Assembly (NCBI GenBank): GCA_946480015.1
Contig: CAMLIL010000110.1
Span: forward strand, 1 to 16,494
Length of the DNA: 16,494 nt
DNA from: an uncultured Oxalobacteraceae bacterium
GTDB lineage: Bacteria > Pseudomonadota > Gammaproteobacteria > Burkholderiales > Burkholderiaceae
Direction: 5' to 3'
A program made the position numbers and the translations under genes. Below are positions 2,667 to 12,105 of the stretch, one piece after another. The notes under the pieces were generated by a model. The model did no database searches. It was not told the DNA's origin and saw only the letters and a list, made by a program, of their open reading frames with translations. Numbering within the stretch: the first letter of the stretch is position 1; each line of letters starts with the position of its first letter.

Positions 2667-2683
2667 ATGACAACGATGGACAT
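2667..2683 (+). promoter_or_regulatory. Candidate LacI-family operator upstream of lacI
   Basis: ATGACAACGATGGACAT is an imperfect 17-bp palindrome with an odd centre (outer ATG/CAT arms, then C/G and A/T pairs). It lies at about +5 to +21 of the predicted promoter, where a bound repressor would block initiation. Its first 12 bases recur at four other places in the locus. The position supports autoregulation of lacI and control of the operon behind it. Confidence 0.6.
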
Positions 2684-2757
2684 TTCGAGTTCCCGGCACC
2701 GTGCAAGAATACATGCGCAGCGAGGGCAGTGGTTCCATTTTTCATGCTTAGGGTATC

Positions 2758-3786
2758 GTGGCTACGATTCATGATGTTGCAAACAAGGCGAGGGTGTCGA
2801 TCAAGACGGTCTCGCGCGTGCTGAACGGGGGCACCCAGGTGTCGGAGGGCACGCGCCAGCGCGTGGCCGACGCGATGGCGGCGCTGGCGTTCTCCCCTTC
2901 GGCAGCGGCGCGCAATCTGCGCGGCGTGCCCACTGGCCTGGTGGCGGTGATCGCCGAGCAGCTGACGATCACGCCAGACTCATTCGAAATCATCAAAGGC
3001 ATCCAGTCCGTGTGCGAAGAAATGGGCAAGGTGCTGCTGATCGGCGAAACCGGCGGCCGTCCGGACGCGGTGCAACGCCTGGTTTCCGGCTTTCGCAATC
3101 ACCGGGTCGAAGCCGTGCTGTTCGCTACCTTGTGCCACCAACAAGTGTCGATCGAACCGGTGATGGGCGACACCCCGGTCGCGCTGGCCAATTGCTACGA
3201 AGCGGACCTGCGTTACACCCAGGTGGTGCCCGATGACGAGGCCGGCGGCCACGTGGCGGCGACCATCCTGCTCGATGCGGGCCATCGCGATATCGCTTTC
3301 CTGCAATTGATTCCGGGTATGGTGGCAACCGACCTGCGTCTGCAGGGCTTCCAGCGCGCGCTGACCGAACGCGGCGTGGCCCCGGTGCCGGAATGGGTGC
3401 TGCATGGCGCCGAACCGGTCGAGGGGGACGAGTTCGCCCACTTGCCCGATGCGCTGGACCGCCTGTTCGGCGCCGCGCGCCGGCCCACTGCGATCCTGTG
3501 CGGCAACGACAAAATGGCCATGCGCGTGATGTTCCTGCTGCAGCGGCGCGGCCTGCGCGTGCCGGAAGACGTGTCGCTGGTTGGCTACGATGATTACCGG
3601 CTGATTTCCGAGGCGCTGTATCCGGGCCTGACGACGGTGTCCTTGCCCTACCGCGAAATCGGCGAACTGTCCGCGCGCAGCGTCCTGATGGCGCAGCCGG
3701 CGGAAGCGGCGACCGTGCGCGTGCAATGCCGGCCAGTCTTGCGCGGCACCGTCCTGGCGCGCAAACTCAGCAAGGGGCAGCGTTGA
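2758..3786 (+). CDS. LacI-family transcriptional regulator of the sugar locus
   Basis: This 342-residue protein has the full LacI layout. The N-terminal helix-turn-helix is TIHDVANKARVSIKTVSRVL (residues 3-22), the hinge helix SPSAAARNLRG spans about residues 46-56, and a periplasmic-binding-protein-like effector domain runs from about 60 to 330, including the family motifs CGNDKMAMRVM and VPEDVSLVGYDDY. The GTG start at 2758 is chosen because the HTH begins immediately after it. An AGGG lies 5 bases upstream. The stop TGA overlaps the ATG of the binding-protein gene by one base, so the two are probably translationally coupled. The effector is likely the imported oligosaccharide or fructose, by context only. 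It is expected to bind the repeated ATGACAACGATR sites. Confidence 0.93.
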   Translation: MATIHDVANKARVSIKTVSRVLNGGTQVSEGTRQRVADAMAALAFSPSAAARNLRGVPTGLVAVIAEQLTITPDSFEIIKGIQSVCEEMGKVLLIGETGGRPDAVQRLVSGFRNHRVEAVLFATLCHQQVSIEPVMGDTPVALANCYEADLRYTQVVPDDEAGGHVAATILLDAGHRDIAFLQLIPGMVATDLRLQGFQRALTERGVAPVPEWVLHGAEPVEGDEFAHLPDALDRLFGAARRPTAILCGNDKMAMRVMFLLQRRGLRVPEDVSLVGYDDYRLISEALYPGLTTVSLPYREIGELSARSVLMAQPAEAATVRVQCRPVLRGTVLARKLSKGQR

Positions 3787-5051
3787 TGAAGCCGCTGCTG
3801 CCACTGCTGCTCTGCCTGCCCTTGCTGGGCCAGGCCGCGCCGGTCGAAGTGAAGCTGTGGCGCCACGATACCGAGGCCGCCGAAATGGACGCCGGCCGCG
3901 CCGCCGTGGCCCGCTTCAACGCCAGCCAGGACCGTTGGCGCGTGGTGGTCGAGGCCATTCCCCAAGGCTCTTACAACGCATCGATTACCGCTGCCGCACT
4001 GGTCGGCCACCTGCCATGCGTGATTGCGCTCGACCAGCCGGTGGTTGCCAATTTCGCCTGGGCCGGGCACATTCGCCCGCTCGACGACCTGCTGCCGGCC
4101 GACAGCCTGCGCCGCTTGCTGGCCGGCGGGCGCGGCACGGCGCTGGGCAAGACCTACAGCGTCGGCCAGTTCGACGTCGTGCTCGCGCTGTTCGCGCGCC
4201 GCTCGCAACTGGCGGCCTTGGGCGTGCGCGTGGCAAGCATGGAGCATCCCTACACCGCGCAGGAGCTGCGCGCGATCCTGCTCAAGGCCAAGCAGAGCGG
4301 GCGCTACCGGTTCCCGATCGACGTCAACGGACGGGCCAAGGGCGAGTGGGTCAGCTATGCCTATGGTCCGTGGCTGCAAAGCGCGGGAGCGGACCTGGTC
4401 GATCGCCTTGACCCCAGCCATGTGGACGGCATCCTGAACAGTCCCGCCGCCATCTCGGTCGGCACCTATTTTGGCGACCTGTTCCGCGACAAGCTGGCCG
4501 AACGCAACCCGGCCGACGACCAGGCCTTCATCCAGGGCAGGACCTTGTTCCACTACACCGGCTCGTGGGCCGCCCGCAGCTACCGGCAGCGCTTCGGCGA
4601 CGACCTGCTGGTACTGCCGCCACCCGACTTCGGCAAGGGGCCGAAGGTGGGCGCCGGCTCCTGGCAGTGGGCCATCACCCAGGGTTGCCCGACGCCGGAA
4701 GGGGCGGGCGCCTTCCTCGCCCACCTGATCAGCACGGCCGAAATGACAACGATGGCCAATGCCACCGATTATGTGCCGATGAGCGCCGCCAGTGCTGCCG
4801 CCAGCGAGCATTACCGGCAGGGCGGCGTCTGGCGCGTGTTCTACGACTTCGCCGAACGGTATGCCGTGCCGCGGCCGGCAACGCCCGCCTATCCGGCCAT
4901 CTCCGCCGCGCTGGAAAAGGCCATGCTCGATATCCGCAGCGGCAAGGATGCCGAAGACGCGCTCGACGAGGCGGTCGAGGCGATCGAGGGCAATATGCAG
5001 CGCAACCGCAATTACGCCAGCGGCGCCACACAGAAAGCGAGCCGACCATGA
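3786..5051 (+). CDS. Periplasmic sugar-binding protein of a CUT1 ABC importer
   Basis: This 421-residue extracellular solute-binding protein (family 1) begins with a cleavable signal peptide, MKPLLPLLLCLPLLGQA, cut before about residue 18. The mature start VEVKLWRHDTEAAEM fits the first beta strand of the fold. Further family features are AVARFNASQDRWRVVVEAIP (amphipathic helix then strand), IALDQPVVANFAWAGHIRPL (about 80-100), GSWAARSYRQRF (ligand-loop region) and GSWQWAITQGC. The ATG at 3786 overlaps the lacI stop and starts directly at the signal peptide, so an upstream extension in the same frame is rejected. It delivers a sugar to the permeases encoded just downstream. Ligand specificity is not readable, but context favours fructo-oligosaccharides. 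An operator-like motif lies inside the gene at 4743. Confidence 0.92.
   Translation: MKPLLPLLLCLPLLGQAAPVEVKLWRHDTEAAEMDAGRAAVARFNASQDRWRVVVEAIPQGSYNASITAAALVGHLPCVIALDQPVVANFAWAGHIRPLDDLLPADSLRRLLAGGRGTALGKTYSVGQFDVVLALFARRSQLAALGVRVASMEHPYTAQELRAILLKAKQSGRYRFPIDVNGRAKGEWVSYAYGPWLQSAGADLVDRLDPSHVDGILNSPAAISVGTYFGDLFRDKLAERNPADDQAFIQGRTLFHYTGSWAARSYRQRFGDDLLVLPPPDFGKGPKVGAGSWQWAITQGCPTPEGAGAFLAHLISTAEMTTMANATDYVPMSAASAAASEHYRQGGVWRVFYDFAERYAVPRPATPAYPAISAALEKAMLDIRSGKDAEDALDEAVEAIEGNMQRNRNYASGATQKASRP
4743..4758 (+). promoter_or_regulatory. Intragenic copy of the candidate operator motif
   Basis: ATGACAACGATGGCCA lies within the binding-protein gene, coding for MTTMA. It shares all 12 core bases with the intergenic copies and four further bases with the copy at 7978. 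It may be an auxiliary operator about 2.1 kb downstream of the first, or a chance coding match. No promoter is visible beside it. Confidence 0.3.
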
Positions 5052-11483: not shown

Positions 11484-12055
11484 TCGTTGTATGCGGTGAG
11501 GCACTGATGGATGTATTTGCCGAACATGAGGATCTGGATCGCCTGACGCTGGGGGCGCACGATGGCGGTTCGCCATTCAACCTGGCCATCGGCCTGGCAC
11601 GCCTGGGGGCGCCGACGATGTTCTTTGGCGGCTTGTCGAAGGATCTGTTCGGCCGCCGGCTCGAGGGCAGGCTGCGCCGCGAAGGCGTGAACACCGATGC
11701 GGCGCCGCGCAGCGCCGCGCCGACGACGCTGGCGCTGGTCGAGCTCGACGGGGCCGGGGTGCCGTCCTACCGCTTCTACGGCGGACAAATCACGGAGTGC
11801 GCAATCGAGGCGCCGGCCCTGGACAAGGTGCCGCAGGACAGTGCGATGCTGCACGTCGGTTCCTACTGTACCGTTGTCGAGCCAATCGCATCCACCCTGC
11901 GCATGCTGGTCGAGCGCCAGCGCGGCCGCAGCCTGGTCAGCTATGACCCGAATGTGCGGCTGACCATCGAGCCGCGCACCGCGCACTGGGCGCGCCGCAC
12001 TGGAGTGGATGCTGGCGCGCGCCGACCGAATCCTTTTCACAACACCTTGCGATGA
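11480..12055 (+). pseudogene. Fructokinase (PfkB/ribokinase family), frameshifted and truncated
   Basis: The frame begins MIVVCGEALMDVF and holds the first PfkB signature GGSPFNLAIGLARLG (residues 29-43), then the lid segment (PSYRFYGGQITECAI) and DPNVRL (about residues 155-160). Intact fructokinases have about 300 residues and end with a DTxGAGD motif carrying the catalytic Asp. Here the frame stops after 191 residues. At GGG (11988-11990) one extra base shifts the frame; removing it restores WRAALEWMLARADRI, the expected continuation. Similarity then ends at about 12032, next to the receptor promoter, so about the last 110-130 residues are deleted. The ATP- and sugar-binding C-terminal half is missing, so no activity is expected. 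The ATG at 11480 overlaps the ATPase stop. The actual stop TGA lies inside an operator-like motif. Confidence 0.85.
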
Positions 12056-12068
12056 CAACGATAGATAT
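12052..12068 (+). promoter_or_regulatory. Candidate LacI-family operator, first copy ahead of the TonB receptor
   Basis: ATGACAACGATAGATAT carries the same 12-base core. Its right half fits the palindrome less well than the other copies. It overlaps the stop codon of the broken kinase. Its start is 37 bases from the start of the second copy, about three and a half helical turns. Confidence 0.5.
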
Positions 12069-12088
12069 ACGGCCTTGCCTGGCCTACT

Positions 12089-12105
12089 ATGACAACGATG
12101 GACAA
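12089..12105 (+). promoter_or_regulatory. Candidate LacI-family operator, second copy ahead of the TonB receptor
   Basis: ATGACAACGATGGACAA is nearly identical to the site upstream of lacI, sharing 16 of 17 bases. It lies about 142 bases ahead of the receptor start. With the copy at 12052 it forms a tandem pair, as expected for a tightly controlled receptor promoter. No convincing -35/-10 pair was found between 12030 and 12246, although TACTAT overlaps the left edge of this site (12085-12090). Confidence 0.55.

Follow-up and report, generated by a model that had tools for sequence, protein, structure and literature searches.

A probable lopsided LacI-type operator in a predicted fructan locus of an Oxalobacteraceae bacterium

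The stretch of DNA analysed here (the window, 16,494 nt, from an uncultured Oxalobacteraceae bacterium) carries a predicted fructan utilisation locus, in which a LacI-family repressor (2758-3786) very probably has its operators at 2667, 7978, 12052 and 12089. Together they would form a repression switch like that of lac O1 of Escherichia coli, relieved by a fructan breakdown product or sucrose. The sites are conserved in orthologous loci, co-occur with the regulator across genomes, are asymmetric and share a common orientation, and before lacI they follow a recurrent promoter layout; binding and repression are what we infer from these features. The regulon itself is ordinary. What is new is that its operator is lopsided throughout and points one way, while sampled relatives of this regulator branch have symmetric sites. 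The lopsided form was seen in 22/22 loci examined, in one direction, and no published description of this operator was found in the literature searched.

In the proposed switch, a repressor dimer bound in the absence of inducer just downstream of the -10 element of its own promoter would stop RNA polymerase, and further dimers would be bound ahead of the GH32 gene and around the TonB-receptor promoter. A fructan breakdown product or sucrose would release the repressor and turn on uptake and hydrolysis; the candidate inducers are fructose, sucrose and fructo-oligosaccharides.

Motif copies in the window

The motif ATGACAACGATR has five exact matches in the full window, all on the plus strand, with starts at 2667, 4743, 7978, 12052 and 12089. 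An earlier note on this DNA had held five plus-strand copies to be beyond chance, and the numbers bear this out: the mean chance expectation is 0.01, and five or more copies occurred in 0/200 dinucleotide-preserving shuffles. The positions likewise agree with its placing of four of the five copies at gene boundaries (2667, 7978, 12052 and 12089), the remaining copy at 4743 being intragenic. Allowing up to two mismatches to ATGACAACGATR adds only one site in the window, at 5707 on the minus strand. Two copies, those at 7978 and 12052, include the codon that terminates the preceding reading frame.

Extended to 17 bases, the plus-strand operator before lacI (2667..2683, ATGACAACGATGGACAT) shows no difference from the consensus of the orthologues. 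The operator between the GH43-like and GH32 genes (7978..7994, ATGACAACGATAGCCAT), the distal operator of the TonB-receptor gene (12052..12068, ATGACAACGATAGATAT) and the proximal one (12089..12105, ATGACAACGATGGACAA; placed by its exact match and the orthologue consensus) differ from it at one position each, and the intragenic copy at two. The outer ATG/CAT arms that the earlier note ascribed to the 17-base sites hold at 2667 and 7978; the end reads GATAT at 12052, and CAA at 12089 and 4743. Its description of the sites as imperfect palindromes is amended here to an odd-length hybrid of a short and a long half in one orientation.

Conservation across loci and genomes

The closest LacI relatives were taken from the best 80 of 203 loci, and among these the nearest to the window regulator are 15 Oxalobacteraceae loci whose regulators are 63-73% identical to it. 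These 15 and six further loci were compared with the window (22 in total), and the gene cluster is syntenic in the 21 other loci. With the window included, the extended sites lie before lacI in 22/22 loci, before GH32 in 21/22 and on the receptor side in 22/22; for L012, the sequence available past its receptor-side sites contained no recognisable receptor. The operator at the GH32 site contains the upstream stop codon in 16/21 loci. Because the expression used for sites at the locus level read a single strand and allowed variation in the left half at its first base only, invariance and orientation rest more on the whole-genome searches.

Fifteen whole genomes searched on both strands with one mismatch allowed gave 56 matches, against 3 for a reversed-pattern control. 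Forty-nine of the matches were exact, 48 of them within the cluster, and 7 had one mismatch, with 2 within the cluster. A search of 392 genomes from the family of G011 for exact ATGACAACGNTRGACA gave 74 matches in 26 genomes, and the reversed-pattern control was found in 0/392. A relative of the LacI protein at E up to 1e-60 is present in 22/392 genomes, every one among the motif-bearing 26, so that the motif occurs in 22/22 genomes with the orthologue and in 4/370 without it (Fisher p 3e-32, uncorrected for relatedness). Within the 22 LacI-bearing genomes, 69/70 exact matches lie within ~11 kb of lacI; the remaining match (L111) is on a different contig of G011 and begins 19 bp ahead of the earliest start codon possible for a GH32 gene. 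The genome G246 (L117) has a fourth site, located before a divergent additional GH32 gene.

The earlier note had proposed a local LacI regulon, suggested a comparison of orthologous loci, and named scatter of the motif across the genome as the outcome that would speak against it. In the relatives such scatter was not seen, and the conservation of the sites in the 21 other syntenic loci, the co-occurrence in 392 genomes and the sites at extra GH32 genes all support the proposal.

Promoter layout

The predicted lacI promoter (2627..2655, plus strand) consists of a -35 element TTGACA at 2627-2632, a spacer of 17 bp and a -10 element TACCAT at 2650-2655, which lies 11 bp before the operator 2667..2683. 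Examination of the regions upstream of lacI and of two extra GH32 genes reveals the arrangement TTGAC-17/18-TANNNT in 24/24, compared with 26/4800 shuffles, and in these 24/24 regions the operator begins 7-12 bp after the -10 element.

Of the two operators before the receptor gene, the distal one offers in its right half a -35 element TAGATA (12062-12067), and 17 bp after it a possible -10 element TACTAT (12085..12090, plus strand, 4/6 consensus letters) runs into the proximal operator. The two operators are 37 bp apart in the window, L011 and L012; in this arrangement the -35 is TAGAYA, from the right half of the first operator, and 17 bp further on the second operator starts on TACTAT, TAGAAT or TAGTAT. 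These hexamers, which match 4-5/6 consensus letters, suggest less firmly than the lacI layout that a promoter lies between the two TonB-receptor operators. L014, whose three sites on the receptor side are spaced by 41 and 26 bp, departs from the 37-bp arrangement. No consistent general promoter was found for receptor sites with a single operator. We also note that the receptor leader of ~140-150 nt (12106-12246 in the window) shares, by eye, G-rich and AACTGA/AAAAC/TATTAC-like pieces with L010 and L011.

At the GH32 site of several loci (e.g. L003, L005, L007, L008 and L033), the left half of the operator could serve as a -35 element with a -10 element at 16 bp, an arrangement that is not seen in the window or in most other loci. 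No promoter of the lacI type, and none that is consistent across loci, was found at the GH32 site, where the upstream stop codon mostly lies within the operator; a roadblock within the operon or an unrecognised promoter is therefore possible there.

Shape of the operator and of the sites of its relatives

The operator, ATGACAACGWTRGACAT, is 17 bp long and asymmetric. Read as ATGACAAC|GWTRGACAT, it has a left half of 8 (ATGACAAC) and a right half of 9 (ATGTCYAWC from the other end). The short half is situated on the promoter side with the long half opposite, and every match at the loci has the same direction relative to the gene that follows it. The central CG is present in 73/73 sites tallied, but it is fixed by the search expression.

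The 308 bp before lacI were fitted to four arrangements of halves that had been derived from the very sequences being fitted; in ten shuffles per row the fit was never better than 3 mismatches. The short-long arrangement fits with at most one mismatch in 16/16 Oxalobacteraceae-type rows, where the best symmetric fits leave 4-5 mismatches in 16/16 and the sites are thus not palindromes of even length. Even palindromes are the common case for LacI-type regulators, found for 1251/1303 of them, with odd ones at ~4%, according to the part of the survey consulted (PMC4052901). Among the sampled relatives of the regulator, those of gammaproteobacteria have symmetric 18-bp sites and those of alphaproteobacteria symmetric 16-bp sites. 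The long-long arrangement fits with at most two mismatches in 9/12 gammaproteobacterial rows; L016 and L017, whose regulators are identical, need 3, and L026 has no long-long site before lacI. The short-short arrangement fits with at most one mismatch in 5/5 alphaproteobacterial rows.

Searches of whole genomes gave a similar division. Exact symmetric forms, short-short or long-long, were found in 0/25 Oxalobacteraceae-type genomes. With one mismatch allowed, the long-long form occurs in 10/10 gammaproteobacterial genomes and 0/5 others (reversed control, 7 strand-matches), with some matches (G398, G403) on contigs other than that of the locus. The exact short-short form is present in 4/4 alphaproteobacterial genomes, in G407 on a contig unlike the locus, and also in 2/10 gammaproteobacterial genomes on other contigs; it is absent from Sphaerotilus. 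The short-long form with one mismatch gave 9 matches in 7/15 relative genomes against 8 for the control, which amounts to background; of the 9, two exact ones lie outside the loci and one belongs to Sphaerotilus. This last site, in L032, is a 17-bp hybrid that lies in the opposite direction before a more distant lacI, and given its presence, hybrid operators may have arisen more than once. The Alteromonas site when reversed, TGACCAACGATAGACA, equals TGACAACGATAGACA but for one lost base.

The NagR box of Xanthomonas and Shewanella, TGACA-CG-TGTCA, is of the short-half type, even and symmetric. The resemblance to it that the earlier note pointed out could fit the left half of the window operator only, since the right half is of the long type seen in the gammaproteobacterial relatives. 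No paper confirming this form of the box, and none on TGACAACGTTGTCA and the Xanthomonas NagR box, was found in the literature searched.

Regulator tree and the two-part locus

A tree was built from 45 regulators, comprising 22 Oxalobacteraceae-type, 12 gammaproteobacterial, alphaproteobacterial and further rows. The 22 Oxalobacteraceae-type regulators, the window's included, form one clade (99/100) that groups with the 12 gammaproteobacterial rows (97/93), and the alphaproteobacterial rows fall outside; the deep joins are unsure because several outgroup branches are very long.

Gene content was compared over stretches of up to 21 kb, some of them short, at E up to 1e-6. Five alphaproteobacterial loci have matches to the binding protein, permeases, GH43-like hydrolase and ATPase, with no GH32, fructokinase or receptor match. 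The 12 gammaproteobacterial loci have a GH32 in 12/12, a receptor in 9 and a fructokinase in 4, with no match to the ATP-binding cassette (ABC) or GH43-like genes, and the Sphaerotilus locus has ABC genes and a GH32. The Oxalobacteraceae locus combines the alphaproteobacterial-type and gammaproteobacterial-type gene sets. A locus with both gene sets and an operator with one half of each type is suggestive of a link between the two, not proof. A tentative scenario, which we hold to be somewhat doubtful, is that a lacI/ABC/GH43 operon of alphaproteobacterial type merged in Oxalobacteraceae with a GH32/fructokinase/receptor module of gammaproteobacterial type; the symmetric operator would then have become a hybrid at every promoter, the dimer would read unequal halves, and the direction of the site would matter for repression. 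One regulator branch with three operator lengths on the tree (16, 17 and 18 bp) provides a natural series for half-site spacing and polarity.

Alternative explanations

The motif might belong to another regulator, either global or a LacI-type paralogue, with the adjacent lacI a mere neighbour, given that LacI paralogues can share half-sites, that the short half also occurs in alphaproteobacterial and Sphaerotilus sites, and that the pattern is present in four genomes without the orthologue. We consider this very improbable in view of the co-occurrence with the orthologue (22/22 against 4/370) and of the exact matches in LacI-bearing genomes, all of which are at the locus bar the one at a GH32 gene; moreover, the variant ATGACAACGCTGGACA accounts for three of the four exceptions, and for two of these the flanks look alike. 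Whether the shared orientation of the operators was inherited from one ancestral copy without function is a separate matter, on which the evidence is evenly balanced. The loci of one lineage are not independent and the hybrid of Sphaerotilus runs the opposite way, which favours such inheritance; yet the sites at the two extra GH32 genes and the additional receptor-side sites in L011, L012, L014 and the window keep the same direction, and no exact reversed or symmetric copy is present in the genomes searched.

Several observations weigh against operators of the local repressor, the reading preferred here. The four genomes without the orthologue (G087, G303, G359 and G363) hold one match each, that of G359 being the full 17-mer, and none of nine window proteins was matched in the stretches examined there. 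A uniform-base estimate predicts ~7 chance matches over the 392 genomes, but these four cannot be called chance because the reversed control gave 0. The genome-wide searches cover the genomes of relatives, and the source of the window is covered over the window only. A lacI-type promoter was sought at the GH32 site and found in 0/21, and on the receptor side it is present at only 2/28 sites. In the window, the regulator is a long branch (0.56), the right arms are changed in 3/5 sites, and the fructokinase gene is broken; judged from these features, the window copy of the locus may be decaying. We also note that the 17-mer of G359 (L119:6008-6024, minus strand) stands one base after a TATGAT hexamer.

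The intragenic copy at 4743

The earlier note had counted five sites in its set. Four are read here as operators, and the fifth, ATGACAACGATGGCCAA (4743..4759, plus strand, codon 320 of the solute-binding-protein gene), is specific to the window, the motif being absent at this position in 21/21 orthologues. It is undecided whether the copy is due to chance or recent gain, with chance favoured. A genuine, recently gained auxiliary operator, for which lac O2 inside lacZ is the comparison case, seems unlikely to us. Synonymous recoding of the protein with the codon usage of the window yields the motif in just 49/3000 trials (1.6%), a low rate that makes a chance origin uncertain, and the encoding residues depart from a conserved stretch: in the binding protein, 38 of 236 columns conserved at >=90% are changed in the window, 5 of the 38 at 321-329, and the 9-residue stretches around 321-329, with 3-4 identities to the majority, are among the lowest. 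Against an auxiliary operator stand the lack of a counterpart in the orthologues, the two departures of the right arm from the consensus, and divergence of the gene elsewhere too, so that changes clustered here could have come about by chance. Sites in coding regions make up <1% of LacI-type sites in the part of the survey consulted (PMC4052901).

Comparison with known systems

In the lac system, O1 is placed just after the -10 element, and bound LacI blocks the polymerase at the start. The window operator shares with lac O1 the odd length, the asymmetry and the one intervening base; of the lac-O1-like features, unequal halves in an odd length and a predicted promoter just upstream were seen, the start of transcription being by prediction only. 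The sequence and the sugar are different here, and the likeness does not extend to tetramer looping. Unlike lac O1, the asymmetric form is fixed here at the lacI, GH32 and receptor sites of the sampled Oxalobacteraceae-type loci. To our knowledge, it is chiefly E. coli LacI that has shown why natural lac O1 is asymmetric and how dimer and operators can change length in concert. The extra base of lac O1 and its unequal half-site contacts are described in the portion of the source consulted (PMC2978694).

SuxR of Xanthomonas and ScrR-II of Shewanella are likewise LacI-family regulators of TonB-receptor sugar loci. As far as the excerpted sources go, SuxR is an autoregulated, sucrose-relieved repressor of a TonB-receptor sucrose locus (PMC1790865), and sites of ScrR-II are predicted before receptor and fructokinase genes in a paper that also covers NagR (PMC2996990). 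In the same excerpts, the sux locus has the amylosucrase SuxB and the transporter SuxC, and the Shewanella locus has a sucrose phosphorylase and ScrT-II, in contrast to the ABC importer and GH32 found here. No paper on LacI regulation of levan use in Oxalobacteraceae was found in the literature searched, and Duganella is not mentioned in papers on LacI/TonB-dependent regulons among the matches listed. The 11-mer ATGACAACGAT occurs, among the papers listed, in those with titles on unrelated subjects. Species of Duganella, Massilia, Pseudoduganella and Rugamonas with this operator are predicted to have a fructan regulon.

Genes of the locus and its surroundings

All genes of the locus are on the plus strand. 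The repressor (2758..3786, 342 aa) has the Pfam domains LacI and Peripla_BP_3, and its scores place it in the LacI/GalR family (PF00356, 60.4 bits, cut-off 27; PF13377, 106.3 bits, cut-off 26.5); none of the NCBIfam equivalogs reached the cut-off. It is followed by an ABC solute-binding protein (3786..5051; Pfam SBP_bac_8/SBP_bac_1, matched on an open reading frame (ORF) from 3726, with the frame from 3786 used in the orthologue comparison), by permease 1 (5048..6103; BPD_transp_1 on the ORF 4565-6103, conserved in other loci) and by permease 2 (6070..6984; BPD_transp_1, start codon uncertain). The GH43/GH32/GH68-like hydrolase (6998..7981, 327 aa; Pfam GH43 and GH32N) has a levansucrase as its best solved relative (E 3.6e-8), and its stop codon TGA sits within the operator 7978..7994. 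The next gene (8017..10347) encodes a LamG-GH32 beta-fructosidase/fructan hydrolase with Laminin_G_3, GH32N and GH32C domains and solved GH32 relatives, and a UgpC/MalK-type ABC ATPase (10350..11483; NCBIfam PRK11650 above cut-off) follows.

The fructokinase remnant (11480..12055, 191 aa) covers 4-171 of 302 positions of the PfkB profile and aligns to residues 1-174 of a 324-aa orthologue. The fructokinase of other loci, where found, aligns over at least 312 of 324 residues; none was found in L004, L011 and L117. A continuing fructokinase-like protein stretch is visible in another frame just past 12055. The TonB-dependent receptor (12247..15081, 944 aa; Pfam Plug and TonB barrel) is 72-84% identical over the parts available in 20/21 other loci. 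GH32, an uptake system, a fructokinase (broken in the window) and a local regulator occur together, the combination by which fructan/sucrose utilisation is recognised.

A plasmid origin was considered and rejected, as the matches among the records listed (10 of 111) cover only 10433-11081, within the ATPase gene, and an Rfam scan of the window gave nothing at gathering scores. Near the lacI side, an ORF of ~110 aa with a transposase helix-turn-helix domain (HTH_Tnp_1) lies at 1982-2317 on the minus strand; from this match, a mobile-element remnant may border that side of the locus. The ORFs 71-1042 (minus) and 1068-1427 (plus) are mutually divergent and without a Pfam match above cut-off. Past the receptor gene, 15128-15307 holds a fragment of the GH13 alpha-amylase family (profile positions 26-82 of 446), and a GH43 gene with a CBM6 domain at 15479-16492 on the minus strand runs off the window.

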